Below, piece after piece: positions 221-35,423 of a stretch of DNA of 64,000 nt. This stretch comes from a virus. A program made the translations under genes and the position numbers. The notes beneath the pieces are model-generated. The model had not been told where the DNA came from. It did not search any database and saw only the letters and a program-made list of their open reading frames with translations. The stretch lies in IMG/VR virus record IMGVR_UViG_3300030104_003662, positions 1-64,000 of that record; one strand, given 5' to 3'. Each line of letters opens with the position of its first letter. The stretch's first letter is position 1.

Positions 221-257
221 TGGCTTTTTACCTTCATCCCTTTTGGGTTTACTCATG
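221..257 (+). promoter_or_regulatory. TATA-like leaderless promoter, copy 1
   Basis: TGGCTTTTTACC starts at 221. The TTTTTA core (225-230) is centred 27.5 bases before the ATG at 255, the distance expected when an archaeal transcript starts at the start codon. The stretch 221-259 matches 548-586 at about 30 of 39 positions including the ATG, so two adjacent genes share a duplicated start region. No Shine-Dalgarno site is seen. Confidence 0.5.
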
Positions 258-542
258 AGGTCATTTGAACAGGCTTGGCAACTCCTTAAAGAAGAGGCTG
301 AGAACTTTGATGTAGACAACCCGATGCAAGTCGGCAACTATGCGACTCAAGATTTGCCGCACATTACTTGGATGAGTCCTGAAAAAAGAACTGGCTGGGT
401 GGATGGTAACTTGATGTTGTTCGGCCTCCCTCAATGGGCAGCGAGAAACAAACATACAGCGAGTATATCAACGGATAAACAAGAAACTCCTCAAGAGCAT
501 TTTACGAGACAGATGTTTGATGCACAGGGTAAACTAAAATAG
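255..542 (+). CDS. Small AW-x-LLK-tagged protein, function unknown
   Basis: This 95-residue product begins MRSFEQAWQLLK, the first copy of the AW-x-LLK peptide. The start is the ATG at 255 rather than the in-frame TTG at 243, because ATG 255 and ATG 582 align in the duplicated leaders and both lie 27.5 bases from a TATA-like box. The rest is hydrophilic with no motif I recognise. It is the first gene after the gene-free leader, and the next gene starts from a copy of the same promoter. A virion-internal or accessory role is inferred only from the tag. Confidence 0.6.
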   Translation: MRSFEQAWQLLKEEAENFDVDNPMQVGNYATQDLPHITWMSPEKRTGWVDGNLMLFGLPQWAARNKHTASISTDKQETPQEHFTRQMFDAQGKLK

Positions 543-547
543 ACCGC

Positions 548-584
548 TGGCTTTTTACCCTGAGTCGCATTGGCTTTACGCATG
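548..584 (+). promoter_or_regulatory. TATA-like leaderless promoter, copy 2
   Basis: The TTTTTA core at 552-557 is centred 27.5 bases before the ATG at 582, exactly as in copy 1. The near-repeat of 221-259 is most simply a duplication of promoter plus start region. It overlaps the end of the preceding gene by nothing and fills the short intergenic gap. Confidence 0.5.
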
Positions 585-1271
585 GGAGCATTTGATAACG
601 CTTGGTCAGTATTGAAATTAGACCGTTCTCACTTTAACCGCCTTGAGATAGACGACGATGAAGAACTGTCACACGAACCTACCGAGGAATACCCCGGACA
701 GCATCGTGACGAGCCAGTGAAGAACCCAATGCATGAAGCAACAATGGATGAGAGGTTTGAAGAAGAAGAGGCAGAGGGTGTACCTGAAAAGTCTCGTTTG
801 CTTTCTGCTCGCCCGCCTCAAAGACTTGACTTAAGCACTCCTAAGAATCCTTTCCAAAAATCTTGGAACATACTCAAGGCTCGCACTGAGCGGGCTTACT
901 CACCGATGCATGGAGAGCGCGCTCCTACAGCAGAGCAGCGTGCCATCGACCGTAGTGTGAGAATGAAGCCTGACAATTTACAAACTATGACACAACTTGC
1001 GGGCATGCCGCAAGATATTAGTTCAGCGACTGGTGATATATCAAGGCAAACTGAGCGGGCTAATGTCATGCGTGATGAAAGTAGAAACCGTATGGCCGGG
1101 CAAGAAGAACTTGAAATGGGAATGACAGAAGAAGAAGAAGCGGATTATGTCAAATACTTATTAGACAGGAGCAAGGGTGAAGAAGATGCACGCTTTAGAG
1201 AAAGCGCAGGTAGTGAGGGCAGCCCAGCGGGTCGTAACATTGGTGGTCTTTCATCAAGAGTAGCACTATAA
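582..1271 (+). CDS. Two-tag acidic protein, function unknown
   Basis: The 229-residue product starts MGAFDNAWSVLK and has a second tag, NPFQKSWNILKAR, at roughly residues 89-101. Between them is a very acidic stretch rich in Glu, and the C-terminal half is also Glu/Arg-rich and probably helical or disordered. No catalytic motif is visible. ATG 582 is preferred over the in-frame TTG at 570 because it fits the TATA spacing. The second internal tag suggests fusion of two formerly separate tagged proteins, as seen on a larger scale in the gene at 4998. Confidence 0.6.
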   Translation: MGAFDNAWSVLKLDRSHFNRLEIDDDEELSHEPTEEYPGQHRDEPVKNPMHEATMDERFEEEEAEGVPEKSRLLSARPPQRLDLSTPKNPFQKSWNILKARTERAYSPMHGERAPTAEQRAIDRSVRMKPDNLQTMTQLAGMPQDISSATGDISRQTERANVMRDESRNRMAGQEELEMGMTEEEEADYVKYLLDRSKGEEDARFRESAGSEGSPAGRNIGGLSSRVAL

Positions 1272-1283
1272 GGGGAAATTGAA

Positions 1284-1721
1284 ATGCAACCAATCGACGC
1301 AGCATGGAACTTATTGAAAGCAATAAGAATGGATGACGAATATGCCGATGAGCCAATAGACTATGGTGATGCCAATTGGCCCGACGGCCCCGGTCATTTT
1401 ATGTTCACTGGTGGAAAAGGTAGTATGAATCCGTTTAGCGTATCATCAAGACAGAAAATTGGTGACGAGACTCCAGCGCATGCTCAGGTTACAGCGCAGC
1501 GCCCTGCTCATTTGGATAATGCAGAAGAAGCAAGACTGGCTGCATTGTCAGAAGCGCAGGGTACAGTAAGTCCTGAAATGCACATGACACAGTTGCTTGG
1601 TGAATTAACGGCACGATTAGATAACACTATTCCCGGTACTCTTGAAAGAATGCAATTAGAAGAGCGCATCCAAGAGTTGCAAAACCGAGTTAGCCGAATG
1701 GGTCCCGGCTCAAGCCCTTGA
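1284..1721 (+). CDS. AW-x-LLK-tagged protein with C-terminal coiled coil
   Basis: The 145-residue product begins MQPIDAAWNLLKAI. Residues about 100-140 look like a heptad-patterned helix (TLERMQLEERIQELQNRV), so oligomerisation is likely. The middle is Gly/Pro-rich. A GGGGAAA Shine-Dalgarno-like stretch lies about 6 bases before the ATG. The tag-coding DNA is nearly identical to that of the next gene, pointing to recent duplication of the tag. Function unknown. Confidence 0.6.
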   Translation: MQPIDAAWNLLKAIRMDDEYADEPIDYGDANWPDGPGHFMFTGGKGSMNPFSVSSRQKIGDETPAHAQVTAQRPAHLDNAEEARLAALSEAQGTVSPEMHMTQLLGELTARLDNTIPGTLERMQLEERIQELQNRVSRMGPGSSP

Positions 1722-1736
1722 TAAGAAGTGAATAAC

Positions 1737-2426
1737 ATGAAACCAATTGACGCAGCATGGAACTTATTAAAAGCGATACCCTTAGACCCTGACACCCCAT
1801 GGGTGGATGGTAAAGGCATATCAGGTTTTAGAGGCGAAGTATCGGATGCCCACTTTAGAGAAAGTTTACCTAATTTTCCTTTAGGTGCTCATATGCAAAC
1901 TAACGAAATGCCTAATTACACAGATACAGACAGCCGTGGTCGAATTGCAGCGGTTTTAGGTGGAGAAAGGAACATGAGAACAGTGCCTATTAGTCCATAC
2001 GATAGCGACATTACAAGGCAAAGTGCCTATCAATTCGCCCCTCTTGAAAATCCTGACTTCCCACGAGGACATGGAGGCTACAATTACCCAACTGCTAATT
2101 ACCAAGGAGGATTTCCGAAAACTCACAGGCCGACACCCGGTAGCAATCAAGAACTGATTGATGCAATATCAAGGCTTAGTCCTGATGAACAGTATTTGGT
2201 AAATGCAATGAAGGAAAGCCATAGAACCACTCATCCTACTCAGAAAACTCTTGATGAAATGAACATGTCTCGTGACGAATACTTGCAGCATATGCAAGAA
2301 AATGCAACAGCAGCAGCAAGGGCAATGGGCCTAGACAATAATCTACCCGGAGGAAGGTTAGGTGCGGTTGCTAGGTATAGTCAAGACATGACTCCTCCTG
2401 AGTATCAGCAATCCGTATTTGAGTGA
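1737..2426 (+). CDS. AW-x-LLK-tagged protein with possible sigma4-like helix-turn-helix
   Basis: The 229-residue product begins MKPIDAAWNLLKAIP. A GTG lies nine bases upstream in frame, but the ATG at 1737 matches the tag register of its neighbours. Near the C-terminus (about residues 150-205) the pattern LSPDEQYLV ... TLDEMNMSRDEYLQHM resembles the region-4 helix-turn-helix of sigma-type factors. This is weak and may only reflect a generic helical repeat. The middle is Pro/Asn/Tyr-rich. The leader GTGAATAACATGAAACC is shared with the next gene. Confidence 0.55.
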   Translation: MKPIDAAWNLLKAIPLDPDTPWVDGKGISGFRGEVSDAHFRESLPNFPLGAHMQTNEMPNYTDTDSRGRIAAVLGGERNMRTVPISPYDSDITRQSAYQFAPLENPDFPRGHGGYNYPTANYQGGFPKTHRPTPGSNQELIDAISRLSPDEQYLVNAMKESHRTTHPTQKTLDEMNMSRDEYLQHMQENATAAARAMGLDNNLPGGRLGAVARYSQDMTPPEYQQSVFE

Positions 2427-2431
2427 ATAAC

Positions 2432-3214
2432 ATGAAACCCCTTGAGCAAGCGTGGGATTTGCTCAAAGCAAAACAATATCATCACTCTCGTACTGACCGT
2501 TGGATTCCTGAAACACAAACTACACTAGGTCAGCATGGTTTCAAAGGGGCTGCTGATAACTTAACAGACGCTTTGTTAGATGACAATTATGCTTATAGTA
2601 CTGAAAGACCGGATAGTAGAAGAGGAGATTACTATGTCTCTTTACCAAAACAAGACTTAAGGTCAGACACAAGGCGTTATCAAATCCACTCTGCTGATAA
2701 TGATAAAGTGGCTGGTCAGGCTGATATGATGAGAGGTTTACTATCTACAGACAATATGGTACAAGAGGCTTACAAACCGACTTACGCTTTAGTAAATCCT
2801 ACGCATAGGGGTCAAGATTTGTATAACCGTGCTTTGTTAGGTATACTTTCTGCACAAGGACCCGCTGACATAGGTAGTTTGGTATCAAGTGATAGAACAA
2901 TGGCAAGTGCTACTTCTCATCAAAAGTTACAACAAGACTTAGCAAACTTAGGTGAGGGCTACTTTAGCAGAGAAGGCGGGTTGGGTTACGATGAGCCAAC
3001 CTTTAGCCCGCTACCACGCAGTCAAAATGACGAACATACTTATTTGTCACTAGGTAATTACTCTCCGCCAAGTCTATACGGAGACCTTCGTGCAAGAGAC
3101 CCCGGAGGTTTGCCGATGAGAATCATTGACGAACCTCAGTCTGTTGAGGACTTTTCTGAGTCTGACCCAAGCCAAACTATACAAGCAAAATTACCTCAAT
3201 GGGGTATTTACTAA
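2432..3214 (+). CDS. AW-x-LLK-tagged protein, possible GNAT-like fold
   Basis: The 260-residue product begins MKPLEQAWDLLKAK. The central stretch (about residues 115-180) has the pattern YALVNPTHRGQDLYNRALL followed by SLVSSDRTMAS ... HQKLQQDLANLGEGYF. This recalls divergent phage acetyltransferase-like proteins (V-x-P-x-x-RG, then S-D-R ... A ... L ... L-x-x-G), but acetyl-CoA-binding residues are not convincingly complete. The start at ATG 2432 is chosen by analogy with 1737. It is the last gene before the HMG-CoA lyase, which has its own promoter. Confidence 0.5.
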   Translation: MKPLEQAWDLLKAKQYHHSRTDRWIPETQTTLGQHGFKGAADNLTDALLDDNYAYSTERPDSRRGDYYVSLPKQDLRSDTRRYQIHSADNDKVAGQADMMRGLLSTDNMVQEAYKPTYALVNPTHRGQDLYNRALLGILSAQGPADIGSLVSSDRTMASATSHQKLQQDLANLGEGYFSREGGLGYDEPTFSPLPRSQNDEHTYLSLGNYSPPSLYGDLRARDPGGLPMRIIDEPQSVEDFSESDPSQTIQAKLPQWGIY

Positions 3215-3234: not shown

Positions 3235-3268
3235 TTTTATTTCATGCACTGCCTTCGGATTCAATATG
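3235..3268 (+). promoter_or_regulatory. TATA-like promoter with GCCTTCGG element
   Basis: TTTTAT at 3235-3240 is centred 28.5 bases before the ATG at 3266. Between box and start lies a 21-base stretch (3245-3265) with GCCTTCGG in the middle; it matches 4157-4177 at 15 of 21 positions. There is no Shine-Dalgarno site, so a leaderless transcript is likely. Confidence 0.5.
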
Positions 3269-4120
3269 GGCCGTTCTCGTGACATTCAAATCTACGAAGT
3301 TGGTCCTCGTGATGGCTTGCAAAATGTTTTATTTGAAACAAGTACTTCTGACAAAGTTGATTTAATAACCAGTCTTCATAAGGCTGGTTTTGAAAATATG
3401 GAAATAACTTCTTTTGTACATCCAAAGTTAGTACCTAATATGTCAGATGCTGAAAAAGTATTTGAGCAAACTAAACACTTAGGTGACTTTGGAGTACTAG
3501 TACCTAATCAAAGAGGCTTTGAAAGGGCCAAATCGGTGGGAGCAAAGAAGTTTAATATATTCTTTTCACCCTCAAGAGAGTTTAATTATCGTAATTTAGG
3601 TAATAGTAACTTGTCTGAGATTCATTGGAAACTACAAAACATGCTTAAAGATGTAGACAGAGAAAATGTAAGAGCGTATATTTCCTGTGCGTTTGGCTGT
3701 CCTTTTGAGGGCAAGCCTTCTGAGCATGATTTGAAAGCAACTGCTGAAATTGCTGACGAATTAGCCAGTGATATTGTTTTATGCGACACTATAGGTAGTT
3801 GTCATCCTTCTCTTATGCGTTGGACTTTAGACAAAGTGAAAAAAGTAGATGCTGATATTGGTCTACATATGCACCACAACTCTAAAAGGACTAATGATAT
3901 ATTTGCAAATATAAAATCTGCATTTGAGTTTGGCATAACAAAGTTAGACTCTAGTATAGGCGGACTTGGAGGTTGCCCATTTATCCCCGGCAGCGGTGGG
4001 AATCTATCAACGAATGCTTTGATAAATTGGGCAAATGACAATGGTTATGAAACAGGAATAGAACTTCGTGATTTGATACCAGCAACAGATTGGGTATCAA
4101 AGTTTGATGCAATAGTCTAA
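3266..4120 (+). CDS. HMG-CoA lyase-like enzyme (DRE-TIM family)
   Basis: The 284-residue product covers the whole family length. It carries GPRDGLQN at residues 13-20 (substrate Arg and metal Asp), MEITSFVHPK at about 50 (conserved Glu), H201-x-H203 as metal ligands, and GGLGGCPFIPGSGGN with the catalytic-loop Cys at 237 and a metal-binding Asn shortly after. All residues I know as essential in hydroxymethylglutaryl-CoA lyases are present, so it is probably active, cleaving HMG-CoA to acetyl-CoA and acetoacetate. Related DRE-TIM lyases acting on similar acyl-CoAs cannot be excluded. It sits alone under its own TATA-like promoter between tagged genes and looks like an auxiliary metabolic gene. 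Confidence 0.88.
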   Translation: MGRSRDIQIYEVGPRDGLQNVLFETSTSDKVDLITSLHKAGFENMEITSFVHPKLVPNMSDAEKVFEQTKHLGDFGVLVPNQRGFERAKSVGAKKFNIFFSPSREFNYRNLGNSNLSEIHWKLQNMLKDVDRENVRAYISCAFGCPFEGKPSEHDLKATAEIADELASDIVLCDTIGSCHPSLMRWTLDKVKKVDADIGLHMHHNSKRTNDIFANIKSAFEFGITKLDSSIGGLGGCPFIPGSGGNLSTNALINWANDNGYETGIELRDLIPATDWVSKFDAIV

Positions 4121-4968: not shown

Positions 4969-5000
4969 TTTTTGTCTACTCATTACTTCGCAACTTCATG
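4969..5000 (+). promoter_or_regulatory. T-rich promoter box before the five-tag gene
   Basis: TTTTT at 4969-4973 is centred 27 bases before the ATG at 4998, the same spacing as the other TATA-like boxes, and no Shine-Dalgarno site precedes the ATG. The box is weaker (no A) than the others. Confidence 0.35.
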
Positions 5001-7487
5001 CCGACATGCCATGTTTGTGGTCAGGAGTTTCCTTATGGACCTCAAGGCATTGTCGCACATAGTAGGCATGTAGACGAACACTATGGTGTTAATAACCAAA
5101 GTGAAAAGGATGCTATGTTTCAAACAGGCGAACCAATGGACCTCGCTATGCGGTTGCTAAAAAATTACGATATTGAAGAAGTCAAAAGAAACCTTATGAA
5201 TGCTGGTGCATTTGAGGATTATATTGACCATCAAATTGATAATGCACAACCCGGTATGGATAGAAACCTACCACGGCCTTACGGTTTAATGAGCCATCAA
5301 GCGTTAAATCATTTAATGAATGGATTTTATGAAGGTGATATTAGAGAAATGCTTGATGACCCTAATTTTGCTTTTGATAGAAATAAAGAGGGAAAATTGA
5401 TTTGGAATGCTCGTAATTTAGGGGCGGGAGAGCCTGAACATGCTCATCCCGAACATTTAGGTTTTATGATTGAAAATCAATTGGAGGGAACTCCTATAGA
5501 TTTTCAAGGAATAGGAAAAGAGGTTATGTTAAGATGGTTAGAAAATACACCGTGGAAACTTAATGAACCACGAACAAGTAAGTTCTTAGGTTTGGAATTG
5601 AAACCTACATCAACGACTGACTTTTCAAGTACTTACGCATACGGCCCAACTGATACTTTAGAACAAGTTGAAGGAATAAAAGGGCGAGGCTTTCAAGACA
5701 TTATGACAGGCGAACCAATGGACCTCGCTTGGCGACTACTCAAGATGCCGGTTGTTGATACTGACATTCCTGAATTAAGGATGGCCTATGACTTCGATGA
5801 TGAAGTAAGCGAAGCGCGTCAATCTCACCCTCAAGGTATCATAGGTAACAGTCCTTTAATTTCTAATAGACAAGATGAAATCTCTGACATGACTCCCAAT
5901 CAATACTTCGACCTCTTAAACCAATTTTTTATACAAGAGCATGGTAAGAGGCTACCTGATAAAGACGCAGATTATCGCTGGGCCAATATGAGAATGGGGG
6001 CTGAAACACCTAAAGAGCACATAGGTAATATGGTACAAGGTATAGGTGAAGGTCAGGTTATGGGGATGCCTTCTTTGTATTTAGAAAACGACGGGAGAGG
6101 TAACTTTTTCCCAACAGGGCAGCAAGAAGGCGGCCATCGTATGGAGGCTCTAAGGCAAATGGGGCATGGTGATACTCCGGTCCCTGTCCTTCAACAAAAA
6201 CGAGGTTATAACCGTGAGCCTGATAATTCTATAGAAACATTAACCGAAGACCCTAATAGTATTTTTTACGGTGCTGACCACAAACATATGTCGGATTTAT
6301 TACAAACAGGCGAACCAATAGACCTCGCTATGCGGCTGCTTAAGATGCCTATTGTTTCCGATTTACCCGAAGTAAGGCAACTTGATACTGGCCCAGCAAA
6401 CATTCATCAATTTCAAGACCCAGTAACAGGTGAAGTGAAACCGTTGTACATTTCTCCCGCATCAAACCCTGACTCAGAAAATCTTTACGCCGGTATAGTT
6501 GGAGATAACGGCGATAGAGCATCAGCAAAGTTTAACACCGGAGATGGTGATTATGCAAGTTTGGATGGTGTAGAAACACAAGAGCCGTATCGAAGAAGAG
6601 GCTACATGAGTGCAATATATGATGCGATGGATGAATACCTTCAACAAAACAAAACAGGTCGCCGTTTAGTACCAAGCGATTTCCAAAGTGATGAAGGAAA
6701 AGCGTTTTGGGAAAGTAGGAAAAAAAGCGAACCAATGGACATCGCTATGCAGTTGCTTAAGATAAGTGCAGATGAGATAGATGATATAGAAAGGGAAATA
6801 GAAGGCTCTGTAAAAGATTCAAGAAGAACATTCCCTAAAGGTAGGAAAAAAACGAGAAGCATGGGTATGGGGTCAAGTGAAGAGGAATGGGAGCCTAGAG
6901 AACGACCTAATGCTAGACAAGGTAGAAAACCTCTTTCATTTGAACAGCAAGAATCTGAGTGGGATAAATTAGATATGCATCCGGGTAGCCGAGGTCATGA
7001 AATCAACGCACTACGGAGCGAACAGGCTAGAGGGTACCCCCCGGAGTTTGGGACCTTTGCAGATTTAGACGACGGAGATTACCTTTTACAAGAATATAAC
7101 CCTAATATAGAAGAAAACCCATACTGGGGTTCTTTCATTTATCCGGGTTCAGAGACTCGCTATAATGTGCCAAATAATGATTATTGGATAAAGGATGATA
7201 AAATACTGAACTTTCCTCAACGAACCGAATCACTAGAAGAAGTTCCAACATTTTCTCAAACTCCGTTTAACCCTATGACTGATTTTACCCGTAGCGAACC
7301 AATGGACCTTGCTTTCAGATTGCTCAAAGGTGACATACTAGTTGTATCTGAAACAGTAGCAAAAAAATTATGCCCTGCTGGTAAAGCAGCCGCTAAACGC
7401 AAGTTCAAAGTTTATCCGTCAGCCTATGCTAATGGATGGGCTGTGCAGTATTGTAAAGGTAAGTTTAGGGGGAAAAAGAAAAAATGA
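4998..7487 (+). CDS. Five-tag modular protein: C2H2 finger, ParB-like, GNAT-like and basic modules
   Basis: The 829-residue product contains five AW-x-LLK-type tags near residues 43, 237, 437, 577 and 766, three of them reading TGEP(M/I)DLA(M/W)RLLK. The segments differ. Residues 1-42 form a C2H2-like finger (CHVC ... HSRHVDEH). Residues 250-436 contain GQQEGGHRMEALRQMGHG, the ParB/sulfiredoxin-type loop. Residues 450-576 contain EPYRRRGYMSAIYDAMDEYL and a C-terminal FW pattern of GNAT acetyltransferases. Residues 56-236 and 589-765 are unknown. Residues 777-829 are Lys-rich with CPAGKAAAKRKF ... YPSAYANGWAVQYCKGK, a motif common in phage structural genes. It looks like a concatenation of cargo units, possibly a polyprotein cut at the tags. 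Confidence 0.75.
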   Translation: MPTCHVCGQEFPYGPQGIVAHSRHVDEHYGVNNQSEKDAMFQTGEPMDLAMRLLKNYDIEEVKRNLMNAGAFEDYIDHQIDNAQPGMDRNLPRPYGLMSHQALNHLMNGFYEGDIREMLDDPNFAFDRNKEGKLIWNARNLGAGEPEHAHPEHLGFMIENQLEGTPIDFQGIGKEVMLRWLENTPWKLNEPRTSKFLGLELKPTSTTDFSSTYAYGPTDTLEQVEGIKGRGFQDIMTGEPMDLAWRLLKMPVVDTDIPELRMAYDFDDEVSEARQSHPQGIIGNSPLISNRQDEISDMTPNQYFDLLNQFFIQEHGKRLPDKDADYRWANMRMGAETPKEHIGNMVQGIGEGQVMGMPSLYLENDGRGNFFPTGQQEGGHRMEALRQMGHGDTPVPVLQQKRGYNREPDNSIETLTEDPNSIFYGADHKHMSDLLQTGEPIDLAMRLLKMPIVSDLPEVRQLDTGPANIHQFQDPVTGEVKPLYISPASNPDSENLYAGIVGDNGDRASAKFNTGDGDYASLDGVETQEPYRRRGYMSAIYDAMDEYLQQNKTGRRLVPSDFQSDEGKAFWESRKKSEPMDIAMQLLKISADEIDDIEREIEGSVKDSRRTFPKGRKKTRSMGMGSSEEEWEPRERPNARQGRKPLSFEQQESEWDKLDMHPGSRGHEINALRSEQARGYPPEFGTFADLDDGDYLLQEYNPNIEENPYWGSFIYPGSETRYNVPNNDYWIKDDKILNFPQRTESLEEVPTFSQTPFNPMTDFTRSEPMDLAFRLLKGDILVVSETVAKKLCPAGKAAAKRKFKVYPSAYANGWAVQYCKGKFRGKKKK
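5124..5161 (+). repeat. Tag-coding DNA repeat, copy 1 of 5
   Basis: The stretch coding TGEPMDLAMRLLK. Its core GGCGAACCAATGGACCTCGC recurs almost unchanged at 5706-5744, 6306-6344, about 6727-6762 and 7293-7329, far more alike than the intervening modules. The near-identity suggests duplication or recombination at tag boundaries. Confidence 0.65.
5706..5744 (+). repeat. Tag-coding DNA repeat, copy 2 of 5
   Basis: Codes TGEPMDLAWRLLK. The first 24 bases are identical to copy 1. Confidence 0.65.
6306..6344 (+). repeat. Tag-coding DNA repeat, copy 3 of 5
   Basis: Codes TGEPIDLAMRLLK. It differs from copy 1 by one base in the first 24, changing Met to Ile. Confidence 0.65.
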
Positions 7488-7792
7488 CCCGTTGCACTTG
7501 CCATGATGTACTTATTGTTAAAGACTTGAATCGTTGGTTCAAAGAGAAATGGGTAGATGTATCGCGCAAAGACAAAGATGGCAAGCACCCTCCTTGTGGC
7601 AGAAGCAAGGCTAAAAAGTCTAGCAAAGGCTATCCAAAGTGTAGACCAAGTGTAAAGGTTAGTAGTAAGACTCCAAAGACAAGCGGCTCTATGAGCGAAG
7701 GTCAAAAGCAAGCCGCTACTAAGCGCAAACGGTCTAAAAAGCAAGGTGTTGGTGGAAAACCTACTATAGTAAAAATGGTTAGGGTGGTCTAA
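7484..7792 (+). CDS. Small basic protein, DUF5872-like
   Basis: The 102-residue product is Lys/Arg/Ser-rich. Residues 18-55 read WFKEKWVDVSRKDKDGKHPP then CGRSKAKKS ... YPKCRPS, a pattern I associate with a small-protein family of phages and giant viruses (DUF5872; name from memory). The C-terminal half is a lysine-rich tail. Such proteins probably bind nucleic acid, for example as genome-condensing virion proteins; this is inference. ATG 7484 overlaps the preceding stop and the gene's last base is the A of the next ATG, so translation is coupled. Confidence 0.7.
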   Translation: MTRCTCHDVLIVKDLNRWFKEKWVDVSRKDKDGKHPPCGRSKAKKSSKGYPKCRPSVKVSSKTPKTSGSMSEGQKQAATKRKRSKKQGVGGKPTIVKMVRVV

Positions 7793-8127
7793 TGGACTAC
7801 GACTTTTGCGACTGTTGTACTCCAGCAGAAATTAGTTTTGAGTTTCTAAAGGCTAAAAAGAAGTCAAAGCCATTTCACGGTTACAATCCAAACAAACATA
7901 GCAAAAAAGGCGGTCTAAATGCCAAAGGTCGTGCTGCGGCTAAGCGTAAAAGTGGAGCAAATCTAAAACCACCGGTTACTACAAAGCCATCTAAACTTAA
8001 GCCCGGCTCAAAAAAGGCTAAGCGTCGTAAATCATTTTGTGCTCGTATGAGTGGCGTAAAGGGTCCAACCAGTAAAAAGGGCAAACTTACTCCTAAAGGT
8101 GCATCACTAAAGAGGTGGAACTGTTGA
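7792..8127 (+). CDS. Small basic protein with degenerate tag (RRKSFCARM family)
   Basis: The 111-residue product has a Cys cluster at its start (CDCC), then PAEISFEFLKAKKK, which aligns with P-[MIL]-[DE]-x-A-W-x-L-L-K as a degenerate tag. The remainder (GGLNAKGRAAAKRKSGANLK, LKPGSKKAKRRKSFCARMSG and GKLTPKGASLKRWNC) is a pattern widespread in marine phages and algal giant viruses (I recall it as DUF6321, from memory). It is very basic and probably binds nucleic acid. Start overlaps the previous stop; its stop overlaps the next start. Confidence 0.75.
   Translation: MDYDFCDCCTPAEISFEFLKAKKKSKPFHGYNPNKHSKKGGLNAKGRAAAKRKSGANLKPPVTTKPSKLKPGSKKAKRRKSFCARMSGVKGPTSKKGKLTPKGASLKRWNC
8113..8126 (+). 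promoter_or_regulatory. Shine-Dalgarno site selecting a TTG start
   Basis: GAGGTGG at 8113-8119 lies five bases before TTG at 8124. It supports TTG 8124 over the in-frame GTG at 8115, which would sit inside the site. Confidence 0.5.
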
Positions 8128-8324
8128 ATAACGATGCTATGGCTTATGCTTGGCGCATTATGAAGGGTAAAGAAGACGCACCTAATTACCGATGCCCAGC
8201 CGATGACCCAAAGGAAAGTTGTGGAACTTGTCGTCACTGGGTAGGCAAAGGAAACGGAATGGGTCATTGTAAGTTGTTTGACTTTGATTGCAACGGTAAG
8301 TGTACTTGCGATGCTTGGGGTTGA
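8124..8324 (+). CDS. AW-x-LLK-tagged cysteine-rich metal-binding protein
   Basis: The 66-residue product starts MNNDAMAYAWRIMKGK, a tag variant. It is followed by a compact Cys-rich domain with CPADDPKESCGTCRHW, GHCKLFDFDC and CTCDAW, eight cysteines in about 43 residues. The spacing suggests a zinc or iron-sulfur site and resembles small high-potential iron protein-like phage proteins, which I cannot confirm. TTG is chosen because of the Shine-Dalgarno spacing; it overlaps the previous stop in TTGA. The tag joined directly to a different domain type is another instance of the modular pattern. Confidence 0.65.
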   Translation: MNNDAMAYAWRIMKGKEDAPNYRCPADDPKESCGTCRHWVGKGNGMGHCKLFDFDCNGKCTCDAWG

Positions 8325-8328
8325 TAAT

Positions 8329-8778
8329 ATGAATCCGATGGACCTTGCTTGGATTGTTCTTAAAGCAAGTAGTGTCGAAAGTACTATTGTTAGAACTTTG
8401 AAAGACGAAGGCGGCGCTGCTGGCCTTGATGCTTTGATGAAACCGCTTAGTATTTCTGAGGCTGAACTTAAAGCCAAGTTAAAAGATATGGCAAATGTAA
8501 CACAGCATCGTAATGGTGATTATATTTTAACAGACGGTTTGCACAAGCATGCTTCTTCTCCCGAAGCACTGCGTCATAAAGTAGAGTATGATAAAAAATA
8601 TGAATCTAATCCTGAAAGAGTCAAATATCGTGAGTCTTTGAACCAAGAGCGTCGTAAGCGTGGTATTTATGGGCAAGGTGGCCCTGATATGAGCCATACC
8701 AAAGAAGGCACTATGGTCGCAGAAAACCCTCATGCAAACCGTGCTCGTCATTTCAAAGAGCGAGGCACGCTTAAGTAA
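8329..8778 (+). CDS. AW-x-LLK-tagged protein with HNH-like C-terminus
   Basis: The 149-residue product begins MNPMDLAWIVLKAS at the ATG four bases after the previous stop. A longer upstream frame from 8278 exists but would run through the previous gene. Residues about 20-80 look like a winged-helix-type segment (TIVRTLKDEGG ... ISEAELKAKLKDM ... NGDYILTDG). The C-terminal third (YESNPERVKYRESLNQERRK, then GGPDMSHTKEGTMVAENPHA, then NRARHF) resembles phage HNH-like proteins, with His in SHTKEG and Asn in NPHANRAR at the usual places. Nuclease activity is possible, but the first His is in SH rather than the common DH. Confidence 0.6.
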   Translation: MNPMDLAWIVLKASSVESTIVRTLKDEGGAAGLDALMKPLSISEAELKAKLKDMANVTQHRNGDYILTDGLHKHASSPEALRHKVEYDKKYESNPERVKYRESLNQERRKRGIYGQGGPDMSHTKEGTMVAENPHANRARHFKERGTLK

Positions 8779-8798: not shown

Positions 8799-9011
8799 GT
8801 GGAAGATTGGTGGAGCATACTACTGACTGATATGTTAAAACAGTCAGAAAAAGATATTATGCATCTTGATGCTTTCGTAGACGAAAAAGACTCTTGGAAA
8901 GACATCTCATTATTGATGAATGCAGTAGACCATTATCGCTTTTTGCGACAGGCTTATGAAAACAGAGGCAGTGGGAATGTACATGTCGAAGTCAGATTTG
9001 TCACCGAGTGA
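8799..9011 (+). CDS. Small acidic helical protein
   Basis: The 70-residue product from GTG 8799 begins MEDWWSILLTDMLKQSEKDI and is predicted helical and acidic. The tag-like W-x-x-L-L pattern at the start is too loose to count as a tag copy. It overlaps the following gene by about 30 bases. I do not recognise it. Confidence 0.45.
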   Translation: MEDWWSILLTDMLKQSEKDIMHLDAFVDEKDSWKDISLLMNAVDHYRFLRQAYENRGSGNVHVEVRFVTE

Positions 9012-10200
9012 CGCTGCTTGGGCTGTCTTAAAACAGACAAATGACCCTGACAAGATTGAGAAAATCTTACCTCTTATTCCTTTAGCACTAGCAGGGTATG
9101 GTGCTTATCGTGGCTATCAAAATGTTACTGACCCAAGGGGTCCGGTAGTAACTGACCCTCTTACTGGCGGTTATCTTTACGAGCGTGAGGTAGACCCTAC
9201 GCTTGGAGGTTATGCTGCTGCTTTTGGCTCAGGTGCACTAGAAGGCGTTGGATTAGGAGGGGCTGCGAAACTTGGTGCTAAAGGAGTTTCAAGATTAGCA
9301 GGTAGTTCTGCATCAAAAAGAGCCGCAGCACGACAAGCAGCGTCAGACCATGCTCGTAAGGAAACTACCGAAAGGTTGGCTCGCCAAGAAGCAGATACAG
9401 CATTAGCCGCTCTTAACAGAAGCCCAATTACGCCCGGCGGTAATGTAACTTATGCACCGGCTAGACTTCCAAGTAACTTAGATGATATGGCAATGGCAAG
9501 AGCAAGAACGAGTCCTTATGTTACAGGTCAAGCGAGAGGTGCAGCAAGGGCCGCTTATGCACCCGGAGCACGAAGAGAAGCCGTTGCACGAGGTGTGCAA
9601 AGAGGTGCTGGCAAAGTAGACGATGCACTGTCCGCAAGAGCATTAGGTTATGGAGCGCTAGGAGCCGGGGCGCTAGGACTTGGTGGAGCATATTTAGCAA
9701 ATCGAGCACAAGAGGGATTAGAAAACGCATATCCTGACCCAAATACCTCCGGCTTTGGTGCTTATGGTGGTACTGGTAGCGGTGGTTTTGGTCAAAGTAA
9801 TACAGGCGGTGCTGCTAGTGGCTTTGGCGAAGGCACTGGTATTGGTGGCGTGAGTAATCAATCCAGTAAAAGGACTGGTCTTCAAGACATTTGGACTGGT
9901 AAAGAGAACACTATGCAATTTGGCGGAGGATTTGGCATGGGTGAAAAGGCAACAAAAGGTGAGAATATGAAAATAGGAGAAAGAATGTTAAAACAAGCAG
10001 AAGATATAATGTACAAAGCAGTTTGCCCAGCATGTGGTAAAAAGGACTGTAATTGTAAAGAGTACAAGAACAAAAAGGAAGATAGTAAGAAGCCCGCTCA
10101 TGGTATGGTTATTGTTATCGGTACTAAAGCGGGTCCCGGTCCATATAAAAATGGAAAGCGGGAAAAACTAGACTCTGAAAAAGACGAAAAAGAAGAGTGA
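8983..10200 (+). CDS. Tagged Ala/Gly-rich membrane-active candidate with C-terminal zinc knuckle
   Basis: The 405-residue product begins MSKSDLSPSDAAWAVLKQ if started at ATG 8983 (ATGs at 8956 and 8977 are alternatives). After the tag comes a hydrophobic Gly-containing segment (ILPLIPLALAGYGAYRGY), then a long Ala/Arg-rich region, a second Gly/Ala helix (ALGYGALGAGALGLGGAYLA), a Gly/Ser/Phe low-complexity stretch and a terminal CPACGKKDCNC knuckle with a Lys-rich tail. Two Gly-zipper-like hydrophobic helices in an otherwise soluble protein fit a genome-injection or internal ejection protein. That is inference. A structured inverted repeat follows the stop. Confidence 0.6.
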   Translation: MSKSDLSPSDAAWAVLKQTNDPDKIEKILPLIPLALAGYGAYRGYQNVTDPRGPVVTDPLTGGYLYEREVDPTLGGYAAAFGSGALEGVGLGGAAKLGAKGVSRLAGSSASKRAAARQAASDHARKETTERLARQEADTALAALNRSPITPGGNVTYAPARLPSNLDDMAMARARTSPYVTGQARGAARAAYAPGARREAVARGVQRGAGKVDDALSARALGYGALGAGALGLGGAYLANRAQEGLENAYPDPNTSGFGAYGGTGSGGFGQSNTGGAASGFGEGTGIGGVSNQSSKRTGLQDIWTGKENTMQFGGGFGMGEKATKGENMKIGERMLKQAEDIMYKAVCPACGKKDCNCKEYKNKKEDSKKPAHGMVIVIGTKAGPGPYKNGKREKLDSEKDEKEE

Positions 10201-10349: not shown

Positions 10350-10928
10350 ATGGTGCCAGCACAAGACCAACAATATAGAGAACACGACCAAGCAGAAATA
10401 CGCTTGATGGGATTAATCTTAACACAAGCGGTATCTATCGGAATGGCAATTGGACTATTCGATGCTAATCTATGGATAGATTTAGAAGACCCGGTGGTAA
10501 ATGGAGTAACTTATTCTATGGCAGCATTTGCTGTACAAGGACTTGCTTACTATCTTTTCAAGATGTTTTTCCAACAGGGTATGGATGATAAAGCAAGAAT
10601 GGCTGCTCAAGAGCGAGAGCGCAGAAACCGATACAGAAGCATGGAGTTTACTTTTGACCGTCGCCGCCAAGATATGGAAATGCGTATGCAAGAAGCACAA
10701 CTTGAGACTGAGTTAAAGTGGATGGAGGAAAACCCCGGTAAGACTCCGCCTTGGGTAGAGGAAAGATTGTACAACAACAACGATTTTGATAGTTCTAACT
10801 TTGTACCTAACACTTCTATAACAGATTCTAAAGAGCCGCTTAGCCTAGGCTTAGACTTTGGTGACAAAGAGGCTGCCCGTCTTAAAAAAGACGGTACGCC
10901 CGATAAGCGTTATCAAAAGAAGGGGTGA
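10350..10928 (+). CDS. Two-span membrane protein with cytoplasmic coiled coil
   Basis: The 192-residue product has two hydrophobic segments, about residues 20-40 (LILTQAVSIGMAIGLF) and 52-78 (VTYSMAAFAVQGLAYYLFKM). A long charged helix follows, about residues 82-140, rich in Arg/Glu/Met (RERRNRYRSMEFTFDRRRQD), then a disordered basic tail. The two spans would place the coil on the inner face of a membrane. First gene of a tight six-gene cassette with a Ras-like GTPase; a platform or effector for the GTPase is a reasonable inference. GTG 10335 is an alternative start. No homologue recognised. Confidence 0.65.
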   Translation: MVPAQDQQYREHDQAEIRLMGLILTQAVSIGMAIGLFDANLWIDLEDPVVNGVTYSMAAFAVQGLAYYLFKMFFQQGMDDKARMAAQERERRNRYRSMEFTFDRRRQDMEMRMQEAQLETELKWMEENPGKTPPWVEERLYNNNDFDSSNFVPNTSITDSKEPLSLGLDFGDKEAARLKKDGTPDKRYQKKG

Positions 10929-14909: not shown

Positions 14910-16499
14910 ATGCCGGGTAATATGAGTACAGGTTCTGATACAAGGATGTATAGTCCTCGTTCTGAGTCTATGCTTGGTTATACCAAGGATGAAGACGATT
15001 ACACTTATGGTATAGGTGACCCCGAAGCGATGGAGGCAGCGAAGGATAAGCGCATTGCTGAAAAAGATGCAGAAACACAGGCTTCTGATTTACCACATCT
15101 TACTATTGAAGTCCCTAAACCTGAGCCTGAGATGCCACCTATGATGCCGGGCATAGAAGAAGAAGAAGAAGAAGACCCTATGGCTGACCAATATCAAGAA
15201 GGTAATCAACTCAGCGCAATGACCGGTATGCCTGATACTGGTAATCTCAGCATTGGCAACGCAACGGGTACAATGCCAGCACCGGGCGGCATGCTTGCTA
15301 CAGGTGAGCCGATGGAGGATGCTTGGTCTAGTCTTATGAAAGAAGACGATAATGAAGAAAAAGATGACGAAGTTCCTGACGAGAAGTTTAGTAGAAGACC
15401 TCCTCCTATTGACCCTCAAGCAGAAATTAACAGGCTCAGAAGATTAGCAGACAGTAATGTTGCTGAAACAAGGGAGACCGGGGGTAAGTTTACTGCTCCT
15501 TTTGGCAAGCCTGATTACTTTACAACAGGCGAGCCAATAGATGATGCTTGGAGTAGTTTGATGAAAAACAGAGTAGACCAGTCACCTACTATTTACCAAA
15601 GACCTTCTGTACAAACTGCTAACCCACTCCCTCCACAATGCCCTACTTGTCAAGGTAAGATTCTAAGCCAACCTTGCCCTGATTGTGGCGCACCTGCTTC
15701 TCCACTTGCTGGTACGGCTCATGACAATACGGTTTCTACAGGCGAGCCAATTGATGACGCTTGGAGTAGTTTGATAAAAAGTAGACTTGACAAAGTTGGT
15801 GGCAAGGAATTGAAACCTTGGACTCAACCGCAATTCCGTATTCAGCCCGGTGGTGCTAACATATCTACTGCTACTTCTCGTCGCTCTAAGTTACACTCAA
15901 GATATTTACAACCCAGTAAAAAGCATGGACTTATGCGTAGTCCTCTTTCTGTTCATATGAGCCACCTTGGTGTTTCTACAAAGCAACCTCTCAAGTTATT
16001 TCCTGAAAAGTATAGACACCAAATGGGTACTATGGCTCGTCGTAAATTAATGGGTAACATACCTCAACCGATGTCAGGTCACGGCTTAAGTTCTGAAAGA
16101 ACATATAATCCTAAACCTCCTAAGATAAGTACTGGAGAAGGGTTGAGTATTAGAGCACCAACTGCTCCTAAATTAATGGGCCAGTCTTTGGCTAAGTCAG
16201 ATGACTTGACTAAAGTTAAAAAGCAACTAGATGAAGTTTCTAAAAAAATGGATTACATGCACTTTGCCCAAATGCGTAGGTTACTTAGACGCATGAAAGA
16301 ATCTATGGAAAATAGAGATAGACATAACAAGGCTGCTGTTTCAGCAGGTCCCGGTCAAAATAGAGAGGCAGGGCATCGAGAAGGCCAAGATAGTACTACT
16401 AGAAACGAAGGTGCCACAGAAGATATGGAAAATGACCCTAAGAACTGGGGCGCACCTTCTACTATGTTTGCAGCAAGAGGTAGTGGGAGGGTCGGCTGA
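14910..16499 (+). CDS. Three-tag acidic protein with zinc ribbon
   Basis: The 529-residue product carries three tags of the form TGEP(M/I)(E/D)DAWSS-L-(M/I)K near residues 131, 207 and 278. Between the second and third is a zinc ribbon (CPTCQGKILSQPCPDCG, about 248-264). The N-terminus is very acidic and Pro/Met-rich; the C-terminal part is basic (RRSKLHSRYL ... RRKLMGN) and ends in a coil (about 430-475). Spacers look disordered. It sits just before the packaging genes, so it may be a scaffold or adaptor interacting with the same partner as the tagged accessory proteins. No homologue recognised. Confidence 0.65.
   Translation: MPGNMSTGSDTRMYSPRSESMLGYTKDEDDYTYGIGDPEAMEAAKDKRIAEKDAETQASDLPHLTIEVPKPEPEMPPMMPGIEEEEEEDPMADQYQEGNQLSAMTGMPDTGNLSIGNATGTMPAPGGMLATGEPMEDAWSSLMKEDDNEEKDDEVPDEKFSRRPPPIDPQAEINRLRRLADSNVAETRETGGKFTAPFGKPDYFTTGEPIDDAWSSLMKNRVDQSPTIYQRPSVQTANPLPPQCPTCQGKILSQPCPDCGAPASPLAGTAHDNTVSTGEPIDDAWSSLIKSRLDKVGGKELKPWTQPQFRIQPGGANISTATSRRSKLHSRYLQPSKKHGLMRSPLSVHMSHLGVSTKQPLKLFPEKYRHQMGTMARRKLMGNIPQPMSGHGLSSERTYNPKPPKISTGEGLSIRAPTAPKLMGQSLAKSDDLTKVKKQLDEVSKKMDYMHFAQMRRLLRRMKESMENRDRHNKAAVSAGPGQNREAGHREGQDSTTRNEGATEDMENDPKNWGAPSTMFAARGSGRVG
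15301..15341 (+). repeat. Tag-coding repeat in the three-tag gene, copy 1 of 3
   Basis: Codes TGEPMEDAWSSLMK. Copies 2 and 3 start at about 15526 and 15739 and share ACAGGCGAGCCAAT and GCTTGGAGTAGTTTGAT with each other. Confidence 0.6.
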
Positions 16500-20904: not shown

Positions 20905-20936
20905 TTTTATGACACCAAAAAGGGGAGACAATCATG
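20905..20936 (+). promoter_or_regulatory. TATA-like box before the LAGLIDADG gene
   Basis: TTTTAT at 20905-20910 is centred 26.5 bases before ATG 20934, and GTGT...ACAC flanks it as a short dyad. GGGGAGA lies about five bases before the same ATG, so translation could also be Shine-Dalgarno driven on a read-through message. Confidence 0.4.
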
Positions 20937-30657: not shown

Positions 30658-30690
30658 TTATATAGTATGGTCATTCTCTATAGAAGCATG
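30658..30690 (+). promoter_or_regulatory. TATA box of the capsid operon
   Basis: TTATATA at 30658-30664, the clearest TATA box in the window, overlaps the preceding stop codon region. It is centred 27 bases before ATG 30688. This favours a leaderless start at 30688 rather than the ATG at 30667, which lies too close to the box to be transcribed from it. Confidence 0.55.
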
Positions 30691-32064
30691 GTCGCCTCAC
30701 TTTCACTGAGAACCTCTCCCGTTCATCACGAGGGGAATATCAGTATCATTAAGGCAGGTAACGACCTTGTAATCGCTGGTTATGCCAGTGTCGAAATGGT
30801 TGACAAGCAAGGAGACCTAATTACTCGTGGAGCACTAAAAGACGCTTTTGGTAACTTTATGAAAGCAGAAGATTTTAGAAATGTACAACTCGCACACTCT
30901 AACATACAAGTTGGTAGTGTAATACCACAATACACTGACTCTGACGGTCGTGTGTGGAAATCCGGTGTCGATGACGCCGGTATGTTCGTAGTCATCCAAC
31001 TAAGAGATGACATCGAAAAGGCTCGTGAAGTAGCCAATGATATTCGCAAAGGTAACCTAACTGGTTTCAGCATCGGAGGTCAAGCGTTTAAGAGAATGCG
31101 TAAGGCCGATGATAAACACGGAGACTATACAGAAATCTCCAAGTTGGAACTGCATGAAGTTACTATTTGTGAAAAAGGTATTAACCCGGAGGCGACATTC
31201 CGTATATTGAAGGAGGACACAGATATGACAAGTGAAACAGAAACATTAGCAGAACTTTCTAGTGTCTTAGACCGAATGAGCAAACATATGGATTCAATGG
31301 AGAAGGGCGACCTTCCTCCTTTTATGGAATCCAAAGATGATGCTAAAGACGAGTCTAAGGATGAGAAAGATGACGCACCTAAAGATGAGGCGAAAGATAT
31401 GAAAGACGAAGAGAAAAAGGCATACGATGATATGGAAAAGAGCGAATACTCTGATGTAATATCAAGTGAATACCTAAACTGGATGGAAAACACCTTGAAA
31501 TCACAAGGCGTTGACACCAGTGCGGCAAGAAGTCACTTTGACGATGTCGCTAAGGCTAACCTTGGTAGTACACCTGAGCAGATTGGAGATGGAGCAGACT
31601 ACTTTGCAGGTCAAGTTAAAGGCCGTGCACAAGAAGGTGGCAACCCATCTACTGGCGCTATAGGAAAAGTAAACAGTGGTAAAGTAGAGAAAGGTTACTT
31701 GCACCCAAGTAATGTTAGTTCAACTGACATCGAGGCTGCATACGAAGTCTACAAGGCCGCTGCTCTTGAAGAACAATTCAAGGGTTCCTTGAACAATGTA
31801 TTTTCAGACCGCCTTGCAAAGGAAATGAATGCAGATGCAGAGGCTCGCGCAGCAGCACAATTTGACGCTCGTGCACCACTAAGTAACATCGAGAAAGCAA
31901 TTGCTGACCTTGGTGCTAGAATTGACGACCTTGCTACAAAACCAGCAGGTATAGAAATCCGTAAAGCAACAGACAACTCCACCGTAGAGATTCCTTCAAC
32001 AGAGGAACTCGGTAACATGAACTGGGATGAGGTACACGCTCTAGCAGGGAGTGTATGGAATTAA
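30688..32064 (+). CDS. Prohead protease fused to scaffold
   Basis: The 458-residue product (ATG 30688 by promoter spacing; ATG 30667 adds seven residues) has an S78/U35-type maturation protease at about 15-170, with GYASVEMVDKQGDLITRGAL (31-50), the catalytic His70 in LAHSN and the nucleophile Ser128 in LTGFSIGG. After about 175 the chain is acidic and helical (Asp/Glu/Lys repeats about 200-260) and ends in a scaffold-like domain with a C-terminal MNWDEVHALAGSVWN. It should direct capsid assembly and then cleave itself and partners. It lies directly before the major capsid gene. Confidence 0.88.
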   Translation: MVASLSLRTSPVHHEGNISIIKAGNDLVIAGYASVEMVDKQGDLITRGALKDAFGNFMKAEDFRNVQLAHSNIQVGSVIPQYTDSDGRVWKSGVDDAGMFVVIQLRDDIEKAREVANDIRKGNLTGFSIGGQAFKRMRKADDKHGDYTEISKLELHEVTICEKGINPEATFRILKEDTDMTSETETLAELSSVLDRMSKHMDSMEKGDLPPFMESKDDAKDESKDEKDDAPKDEAKDMKDEEKKAYDDMEKSEYSDVISSEYLNWMENTLKSQGVDTSAARSHFDDVAKANLGSTPEQIGDGADYFAGQVKGRAQEGGNPSTGAIGKVNSGKVEKGYLHPSNVSSTDIEAAYEVYKAAALEEQFKGSLNNVFSDRLAKEMNADAEARAAAQFDARAPLSNIEKAIADLGARIDDLATKPAGIEIRKATDNSTVEIPSTEELGNMNWDEVHALAGSVWN

Positions 32065-32079: not shown

Positions 32080-33252
32080 ATGGCAAGAAATTATATGAGA
32101 ACAGTAAACGATATGGAGCGCTATTATTATGGCGCGGGACAGAGCATGGGATATTCCTACAGTGGTTCAGAACTACTAAAGGCAGATGCACCAATGCTGA
32201 GCACAACCGCAGGTACATACCAAGCAATTTATGGCCGCAAAGTTTGGAGTCAATTGAACCAAGAGTTCAACGCATTCTCCATTCTGCCTAAGAAGCCTTG
32301 GGACAGAAGTGGTTGGAGAGTAGTTACCGCTAAGCCGTCAACATCTGTTGGTGGCGGAGTTGCAGAAAATGCAACCCTACCGGACACAACCAAGCCTACA
32401 TTCCAGCATGTTGCAGCAAAGCCTAAGACTATTGCACACACATTCGATATGTCCGAAACCGCTATTTTCCTTAATGACAAGGATGACGGTCTAGGTGACA
32501 TTCGCTCAGTCCTTAAAGAGGAAATGGGTAAGCACCACGCAGAGCACATCAACCAAATGCTAACACAAGACAGCGAAACACCAGCAGGTAATGACATCGA
32601 GTCTATTGACAGAGTTACTGGAAACGACGGTGGCTCATCCGGTGGATTAACATCTATGGAAACTGGTGCATCAGCAGGTACAGACCACTGTGGCGCTAGT
32701 GATTTAGACATCTACAGCATTGACCGAAGTGCAAACTCTTGGTCTAACGCAGAAGTTGACTGTGGTAGTGACAGAGCAGCAGGTAACCGCCGTACTCTAA
32801 GTCTTGACCACTTGGATACCATCTTCCAAAAGGTTTGGATTCGTGGTGGTAACCCGAAGGTTATGCTAACAGGATATGACACTCTAATGCGTATTCAGCA
32901 ACTTCTACAATCTCAACAGAGATTCATGGAGGAAAAGCGTGTTGTACCAACTTACAACGGTGTAAAAGGTGTACCGGGTGTTGAGGCTGGATTTATAGTC
33001 GCAACTTACAACGGTGTCCCAATCATTCCATCTAAGGATGTACAAGCAGACGGCATTAGCAGAATCTACATGCTTGACACTGACTACCTATACTACAGTA
33101 CTGCGAAACCAACTCAATACTTTGAGTCCGGTATCGAAACTGGAGACCCATTCGCTGTTAACAGACTAGGGCAAGAAGGACTTTACCGCACAATGGGTGA
33201 AGTTTGGACTACTTTCTTTGGAGGTCAAGGTTCAATTCGTGACCTACAGTGA
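32080..33252 (+). CDS. Major capsid protein, HK97-like
   Basis: The 390-residue product has HK97-type features: an N-terminal helical arm, PWDRSGWRVVTAKP, HTFDMSETAIFLNDKDDG (E-loop/spine helix area), and a C-terminal half with LDHLDTIFQKVW ... PKVMLTGYDTLMRIQQLLQ and PIIPSKDV ... RIYMLDTDYLYY typical of A-domain strands. It follows the protease and has a GGGGAATGA site before ATG 32080. No long N-terminal delta domain is visible, fitting a scaffold supplied by the protease fusion. Confidence 0.85.
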   Translation: MARNYMRTVNDMERYYYGAGQSMGYSYSGSELLKADAPMLSTTAGTYQAIYGRKVWSQLNQEFNAFSILPKKPWDRSGWRVVTAKPSTSVGGGVAENATLPDTTKPTFQHVAAKPKTIAHTFDMSETAIFLNDKDDGLGDIRSVLKEEMGKHHAEHINQMLTQDSETPAGNDIESIDRVTGNDGGSSGGLTSMETGASAGTDHCGASDLDIYSIDRSANSWSNAEVDCGSDRAAGNRRTLSLDHLDTIFQKVWIRGGNPKVMLTGYDTLMRIQQLLQSQQRFMEEKRVVPTYNGVKGVPGVEAGFIVATYNGVPIIPSKDVQADGISRIYMLDTDYLYYSTAKPTQYFESGIETGDPFAVNRLGQEGLYRTMGEVWTTFFGGQGSIRDLQ

Positions 33253-34698: not shown

Positions 34699-34983
34699 AT
34701 GGAGTCTAACGACAACCTTGACTTGAATGACATTGAGCGCTTGCAGAAGCGTGGTATTAGGCTTAACGAGTCTTATGGAGCATCGGTAAGAACTGATGAA
34801 GATAATCCACTTGCAGGTTTGACATTAAAGCAACGCAACCGTAATAAGAACGCTGGTGATGTGTTAAACATTGGTAGTGGGACTAGATGCAAGCACTGTG
34901 GTATGCTTTATTTCTGCTGGGTAGATACCTGTAGAACATGTGGTAAGCAAGTAGATTTTAATTTAGGGAGTAGAGAACAATGA
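34699..34983 (+). CDS. Zinc-ribbon protein
   Basis: The 94-residue product is charged at the N-terminus and carries CKHCGMLYFCWVDTCRTCG (about 66-84), with CxxC ... CxxC forming a zinc ribbon. Its stop overlaps the next start. The location among connector genes suggests a structural or assembly role; it is one of several metal-knuckle proteins in this genome. Confidence 0.6.
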   Translation: MESNDNLDLNDIERLQKRGIRLNESYGASVRTDEDNPLAGLTLKQRNRNKNAGDVLNIGSGTRCKHCGMLYFCWVDTCRTCGKQVDFNLGSREQ

Positions 34984-35423
34984 CAGTTTATATTTTGAAA
35001 CAACCCAATCCACACCGTCAAAAGATATTAGTCGACGGTAAGCCAACTAGATTAGGAAGGTGGGCTAATAGAAAAGCAGCAAAGGCTGTTGGAGAACTTG
35101 GAGGAGACCGTGCAGGTCCTGACTGGCAAATGGCTCGTGATAATTTAATCCAAGAAGCGATGGCTAATCCACAAGCACACGGTATTGAGTTCTTAGATGG
35201 AGTGCCCGAAGGTGCCCAAGAACCACAAATGAATCAACCTAATGTCACAAGTGAAGAACAAACCGCAATAGAGCAAGGCTATCCACCCGAAGCAGCGGCA
35301 CCTGCTCCAAGCGAGCCTCCTCACGGAGGTCACCCTGACTTTATGTATCGCAAGTCGTTTGATGACGCTTGGTCTATTTTGAAACAACAGGGTTATTCAA
35401 GTGGTAACGCTTGGCTAAGGTGA
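34980..35423 (+). CDS. Connector-region protein with C-terminal AW-x-LLK tag
   Basis: The 147-residue product begins with a basic region (HRQKILVDGKPTRLGRWANR), has a Pro/Glu-rich middle, and ends FMYRKSFDDAWSILKQQGYS plus ten further residues. The FDDAWSILK tag is thus at the C-terminus, the only such case, and this is the only tagged gene within the head/connector block. That makes it a candidate link between the tag and a structural component. Otherwise unknown. Confidence 0.55.
   Translation: MTVYILKQPNPHRQKILVDGKPTRLGRWANRKAAKAVGELGGDRAGPDWQMARDNLIQEAMANPQAHGIEFLDGVPEGAQEPQMNQPNVTSEEQTAIEQGYPPEAAAPAPSEPPHGGHPDFMYRKSFDDAWSILKQQGYSSGNAWLR

Follow-up and report, generated by a model that had tools for sequence, protein, structure and literature searches.

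A single viral open reading frame of 829 residues strings together unlike protein segments separated by five copies of a short peptide tag, and comparison with related viruses supports the view that the gene is a fusion of units that elsewhere exist as tagged genes or occur in other orders. The frame runs along the plus strand of the window, the 64,000-nt stretch that was analysed of the 96.8-kb record IMGVR_UViG_3300030104_003662 (Table 1). In this gene the tag is 13 residues long and follows the pattern (T/K/R)(G/S)EP(M/I)D(L/I)A(M/W/F)xLLK, whereas the segments between the tags are unlike each other. A preliminary description of this DNA had recognised five tags separating distinct segments in one gene, and this is confirmed, with tag starts (residues 43, 237, 437, 576 and 765) within one residue of the earlier numbers. 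Judged from its sequences, the tag system resembles a set of interchangeable parts by which proteins would be brought into the virion.

Table 1. Five-tag fusion gene, other tagged genes and head-protein sites (positions in the window; an arrow marks a presumed cut)
Feature	Position	Strand	Evidence or comment
Tag LMRSFEQAWQLLK of ORF 243-542	252..290	+	
First tag RMGAFDNAWSVLK of ORF 570-1271	579..617	+	
Second, weaker tag PKNPFQKSWNILK of ORF 570-1271	840..878	+	
Tag MQPIDAAWNLLK of ORF 1284-1721	1284..1319	+	
Tag NMKPIDAAWNLLK of ORF 1728-2426	1734..1772	+	
Tag NMKPLEQAWDLLK of ORF 2423-3214	2429..2467	+	
Five-tag fusion gene (P0001), 829 aa	4998..7487	+	Open frame and five tags
Module 1, C2H2-type finger by eye, residues 1-42	4998..5123	+	CHVC...H...H; homologue is first part of L179:4773-5096, E 4e-7
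Tag 1 TGEPMDLAMRLLK, residues 43-55	5124..5162	+	
Module 2, without known family	5163..5705	+	Homologous to segments of the L247 (E 3e-91) and L226 (E 3e-33) fusions
Tag 2 TGEPMDLAWRLLK, residues 237-249	5706..5744	+	
Module 3, ParB-like by motif only	5745..6305	+	12-member family, 9 in single-tag genes
Tag 3 TGEPIDLAMRLLK, residues 437-449	6306..6344	+	
Module 4, GNAT-fold acetyltransferase-like	6345..6722	+	Profile family of 10, 8 in single-tag genes; fold matches
Tag 4 KSEPMDIAMQLLK, residues 576-588	6723..6761	+	
Module 5, orphan	6762..7289	+	Without homologue in loci compared; low-confidence model
Tag 5 RSEPMDLAFRLLK, residues 765-777	7290..7328	+	
Module 6, basic Cys tail	7329..7484	+	phrog_27331, E 4e-14
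Divergent tag CCTPAEISFEFLK of DUF6321 protein 7792-8127	7813..7851	+	
Tag NNDAMAYAWRIMK of ORF 8115-8324	8127..8165	+	
Tag of ORF 8278-8778	8326..8364	+	Its SPEA...EYD.KYES module is fused behind other tags in relatives
Tag DLSPSDAAWAVLK of ORF 8956-10200	8995..9033	+	
Tag variant 1 TGEPMEDAWSSLMK in ORF 14910-16499	15300..15341	+	
Tag variant 2 TGEPIDDAWSSLMK in ORF 14910-16499	15525..15566	+	
Tag variant 3 TGEPIDDAWSSLIK in ORF 14910-16499	15738..15779	+	
S78 prohead protease, acidic C-terminal extension	30667..32064	+	Pfam E 1e-10
Protease/scaffold junction FRILK↓ED	31198-31218	+	Conserved in relatives
HK97-type major capsid protein	32080..33252	+	phrog_24667, E 5e-56
Capsid protein site SELLK↓AD	32167-32187	+	Conserved in ~94 relatives
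Near-C-terminal tag YRKSFDDAWSILK of ORF 34980-35423	35346..35384	+	

The tag is no chance pattern, and it is specific to viruses. In ORFs of at least 100 aa from 170 loci, a position matrix derived from 37 tags and used with a threshold of 16 bits found 147 places at or above the threshold and none in the reversed proteins; the addition of 80 loci gave 450 tags that are distinct in their following residues. A degenerate DNA pattern for EPMDxA(W/M)RLLK occurs in 52 IMG/VR stretches, where 65 out of 65 translated matches lie in frame within tagged ORFs, and has zero matches among 84,980 prokaryote genomes. Tags at the start of proteins (N-type) have the consensus M-x-(P/A)-(F/M)-(D/E)-x-A-W-x-(L/V/I)-L-K, in which A, W, L and K are near-invariant, and the internal tags follow x-(G/S)-E-P-M-(D/E)-(I/L)-A-(W/F/M)-(R/Q)-L-L-K. 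The terminal K is present in 98% of the 450 tags, N-type and internal alike, and the information content, 4.1 bits at this K, drops at the following residue (most often A or E) to 0.92 in N-type and 0.55 in internal tags, and lower still beyond; information inside the 13-mer is inflated because those positions served for selection, and the drop after K is unaffected by this. The hydrophobic residues at positions -8, -5, -4 and -1 are predicted to share one face of a helix.

About half of the 450 tags are other than the N-terminal type and some are C-terminal: 19 lie no more than 25 residues from the C-terminus, a few of them in frames that may stop at the end of the sequence stretch, and in about ten the LLK is followed by 2-5 residues. 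Frames ending 2-5 residues past an internal-type tag are seen in L176, L187, L188, L198, L199, L295, L304, L307 and others. Of several hundred relatives per scan the best 80 were used, and distant viruses are therefore under-sampled; a wider capsid-protein scan aimed at distant relatives gave mainly the same loci. In the 41 kb of HVTV-1 examined, no tag scored above about 4 bits.

The record holds 13 tagged genes, with one short sequence common to otherwise unrelated proteins, and these genes lie just upstream of the head genes on the same strand; across the loci compared, basic DUF5872 and DUF6321 proteins are among those that carry a tag. The genes for basic DUF5872 and DUF6321 proteins (7484-8127) follow directly downstream of the 829-residue gene; the DUF5872 protein is without a tag in the window and stands behind a tag within a four-tag fusion in L226. 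An HMGL-like lyase gene (3266-4120) is situated inside the tagged cluster. A few kb upstream of the terminase, the gene at 14910-16499 carries tag variants such as GEPMxDAWSSLLK, one to three of them in many relatives (L118, L125, L127, L139, L141, L144, L145, L147, L148, L163 and L168 have such a gene near the terminase), and its product may be a core or hub protein of the tag system.

The clearest view of how the fusion is put together comes from a short gene in a relative (L179:4773-5096) that consists of finger, tag and tail; both of its ends match the 829-residue product (tail E 7e-29), which thus corresponds to the short gene with four tagged modules inserted at the tag. The basic Cys tail lies directly behind a tag both there and in L176, where tag and tail occur without the finger. 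Most members of the ParB-motif and GNAT families reside in single-tag genes (Table 1), and in the closer ParB-motif relatives the module begins right behind the tag with (M/A)P, as in this gene. In the fusions of L247 and L226, module 2 likewise comes after the first tag, beside neighbours that differ from those in the 829-residue gene. In a virus with a 98% identical capsid protein (G001), the ParB-motif segment ends at QKRGYN with a tag directly next, and the module that follows is a different one, outside the matches to modules 4 and 5. Across the relatives an ORF carries 1-8 tags, fusions with 2-8 tags are common, one ORF of at least 1205 aa has eight (G034), the module between tags has a median length of 158 aa, and 22 module families are found in single-tag genes and also in fusions. 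The suggestion in the preliminary description that modules might recur as separate genes or in other orders is thus borne out by L179, L247, L226 and the ParB-motif and GNAT families, and the invariant architecture that would have spoken against it is not what the relatives display. Its further idea that each module resembles one of the stand-alone tagged genes nearby survives in part: such genes exist, mainly in other viruses and not nearby, and module 5 has no relative among the loci compared.

The identities of the modules are uneven. Module 4 is a GNAT-fold module: acetyltransferases make up nearly all of the 50 PDB fold matches listed (best E 2e-3, probability 1.00), the sequence-profile matches are weak and all N-acetyltransferases, and the module folded alone reaches a pLDDT of 80. 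The ParB-like label of module 3 rests solely on a conserved G-x-(H/N)-R-M motif; a ParB identity was without a match in Pfam (E up to 5) and in the PDB sequence profile, and a ParB_N search across the virus gave no match at E up to 10. Among the domain labels of the preliminary description, GNAT is therefore upheld by the fold, the finger fits the C2H2 type by eye without a Pfam match, and ParB is reduced to a motif. No known family was found for modules 2 and 5 in Pfam and phrog profile searches, no metallopeptidase domain was found in the 829-residue protein, and PADLOC returned no anti-phage defence families. In a model of the full protein (13 sequences; mean pLDDT 51.6, pTM 0.38), the ParB-motif module is the sole confident domain, with most 10-residue blocks of residues 281-400 at pLDDT 77-96, module 5 lies mostly at 31-50, and the five tags appear as short helices amid low-confidence surroundings. 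A search with the whole-protein fold was uninformative because the model is mostly of low confidence. No single compact fold spanning the tags, which would have counted against modularity, is seen at this pTM; the model being weak, this is absence of evidence. In an alignment of 112 tagged ORFs (A1), single members match NUDIX and HD, and there is one weak match to S-adenosylmethionine lyase (E 4e-4), an enzyme that would suit counter-defence cargo.

The virus itself encodes a large terminase, a portal, an S78 prohead protease and an HK97-type capsid protein related to that of the haloarchaeal Druskaviridae, together with a family B polymerase in two pieces, a chaperonin and an HMGL-like gene. 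Magroviruses are tailed viruses associated with marine Poseidoniales, for which an HMGL-type gene is listed (PMC10768690). The Magrovirales features of an HK97-type capsid, prohead protease, terminase, family B polymerase and a genome of ~90-100 kb are all found here, and the likeness to Aoguangviridae and other Magrovirales extends to genome size, the two-piece polymerase, the chaperonin, the HMGL-type gene and the Druskaviridae-related capsid (PMC10768690). By its gene content and capsid protein the virus therefore fits the published magrovirus description (PMC10768690); no reference magrovirus was matched in the phage collection. By analogy, the host is probably among the abundant marine archaea. 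A literature survey of incomplete coverage, magroviruses included, turned up no previous account of the tag or of the fusions, and it does not establish priority.

The ending of the tag recurs in the head proteins. In about 94 relatives, down to 71% identity, the capsid protein has ELLK↓(A/S)D or DILK↓AD near residue 34, and the protease has a conserved ILK↓(E/Q)(D/E) at the end of the catalytic domain, followed by a hypervariable stretch. Capsid protein and protease/scaffold junction thus share (I/L)LK↓(A/S/E/Q)(D/E), and the tags end in (L/V/I)LK. In HVTV-1, whose capsid protein is ~33-37% identical, the sequences at these two places are MSK↓AD and VSK↓AD. The HK97 capsid protein is cut at K103/S104 (PMC10275583). 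The shared ending supports a common site that the prohead protease would recognise; (I/L)LK is a common triplet, and the ILK of the protease may be the last structural strand of its domain.

The matching LLK endings in capsid protein and protease favour an explanation to which we give slightly better than an even chance, namely that the tag is a cargo docking helix combined with a cutting site of the prohead protease. The 829-residue gene would then encode a cargo polyprotein of a magrovirus-like tailed virus, in which every tag folds as a short amphipathic helix and docks the segment next to it in the head during assembly. Cuts by the prohead protease would fall behind the terminal LLK, as is probably the case in the capsid protein and at the protease's own junction, leaving finger, module 2, ParB-motif module, GNAT, module 5 and basic tail as individual proteins that lie within the capsid and accompany the DNA; the fusion itself would have arisen by the joining of tagged genes at tag DNA. 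It is important to point out that docking, cutting, packaging and delivery are what we infer from sequence comparison. Of the two roles that the preliminary description proposed for the tag, processing and docking, docking would have to be at least part, since cutting at tags 2-5 residues from the C-terminus frees nothing. A point against cutting is that the module in front of an internal tag would keep that tag if the cut falls behind LLK. If the tag marks cargo, the payload that magroviruses carry into abundant uncultured marine hosts could be listed from sequence alone, and the tag would offer a compact loading-and-cutting peptide that is open to study when the host is not at hand. It would further exemplify clearly how a virus assembles polyproteins out of exchangeable units joined at a common peptide.

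Several known systems bear on this explanation. The capsid-targeting sequence of T4 (internal proteins, Alt) is likewise a short mark on unrelated head proteins that is followed by cutting by the gp21 prohead protease, and it takes the form of N-terminal propeptides of 10-20 residues (PMC5694885). The tags described here, in contrast, occur at the N-terminus, at internal positions (up to 8 per ORF) and at the C-terminus, have LLK as their ending and come from a virus of archaeal type whose protease is of the S78 family; because they are not confined to a removed N-terminal propeptide, the tag is not classed as a member of the T4-type system. Polyvalent proteins of phages and conjugative elements are similar in that they string effector-like domains together in changing combinations and are predicted to be carried into the cell along with the DNA (PMC5512222), and 2-15 domains of different families in variable order within one chain are a feature that the fusions share; here, however, the modules are set apart by a tag that stays constant, and they also occur as single tagged genes. 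By analogy, the tag would work like T4-type capsid targeting combined with polyvalent effector proteins. The ejection (inner head) proteins of SPN3US and phiKZ also comprise several internal head proteins cut by the prohead protease; according to the cited sections, their propeptides are mostly long and are cut at AxE-type sites, and these sections describe no tag-linked fusions (PMC5694885, PMC10052503).

Polyvalent proteins also inspire a different reading, in which the tag is solely a docking (capsid-targeting) helix and the fusion is packaged and delivered as one uncut multidomain chain. Such proteins combine ParB-type and GNAT domains and some, like the N4 virion RNA polymerase, enter the head uncut (PMC5512222); the near-C-terminal tags, too, need docking and not cutting. 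We consider this unlikely, though a serious contender, as it does not account for the abrupt loss of conservation behind LLK or for the resemblance to the sites of capsid protein and protease, and one tag per fusion would suffice, yet nearly every module has one. The resemblance of the modules to regulatory or modifying enzymes would also suit a tag that recruits proteins to an intracellular viral hub, such as a takeover, replication or degradation complex, instead of the virion. The clustering of tagged genes with head genes, the tag variants in the gene just upstream of the terminase and the likeness of the tag end to the presumed capsid maturation site make this improbable. That the fusion is an artefact of assembly or annotation hardly merits belief: a close relative of the whole gene was not found in IMG/VR, the exact gene is known from one contig, and named phages match it in the tail only, but the same kind of fusion recurs with intact frames in dozens of contigs, some of them, such as the 524-aa and 310-aa forms, repeated in separate assemblies. 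In L126 (9088-10480), the tags of an apparent fusion are split among the frames 9088-10176, 9962-10111 (LLK followed by a stop) and 10355-10480, which could reflect decay, frameshift or sequencing error.

Module boundaries cluster at tags. With the tags masked, since conserved tags could draw alignment ends, a tag is no more than 6 aa away from 50% of homology breakpoints when these are weighted by their supporting alignments, compared with 10% at random, and from 32% compared with 10% when unweighted; because the pairs are not independent, the figures give the size of an effect, not a probability. Of the mosaic junctions in the DNA, 43% are located within a tag, where random placement gives 10%, a precision that is overstated because conserved tag DNA can pull alignment ends into the tag. 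Where the tags of one gene have the same residue, codon identity is 0.64, as opposed to 0.385 elsewhere in the same genes, and it exceeds this control, which replaced pooled codon usage, in 62 of 71 genes; in the 829-residue gene, ACA GGC GAA CCA and GAC CTC GCT are identical in tags 1-3. The codon sharing among the tags of one gene indicates copying or recombination of tag DNA. Carried to its extreme, this evidence of codons and junctions would make the peptide an inert linker, and selection would act on the tag DNA because modules move by recombination there. This is very improbable: residues are conserved across tags with different codons, single genes carry their tag at the start of the protein, and A, W, L and K hardly vary among the N-type tags, all of which indicates selection on the peptide. 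A dual role is a fair prospect, if on balance doubtful, in which the peptide loads and frees virion cargo and the tag DNA provides a homologous stretch for joining and swapping cargo genes; new multi-cargo polyproteins would then be assembled by recombination at the tag.

Further large or unusual frames were observed in the window. The protein of 1817 aa that precedes the protease (25204-30657) is positioned like the 'zeta toxin' gene of HVTV-1 and has a weak DNA-ligase match. Adjoining the terminase, ORF 20934-22241 has a stretch that by eye resembles a LAGLIDADG homing endonuclease. A single open frame of 5727 aa (45352-62535) occupies the presumed tail region.
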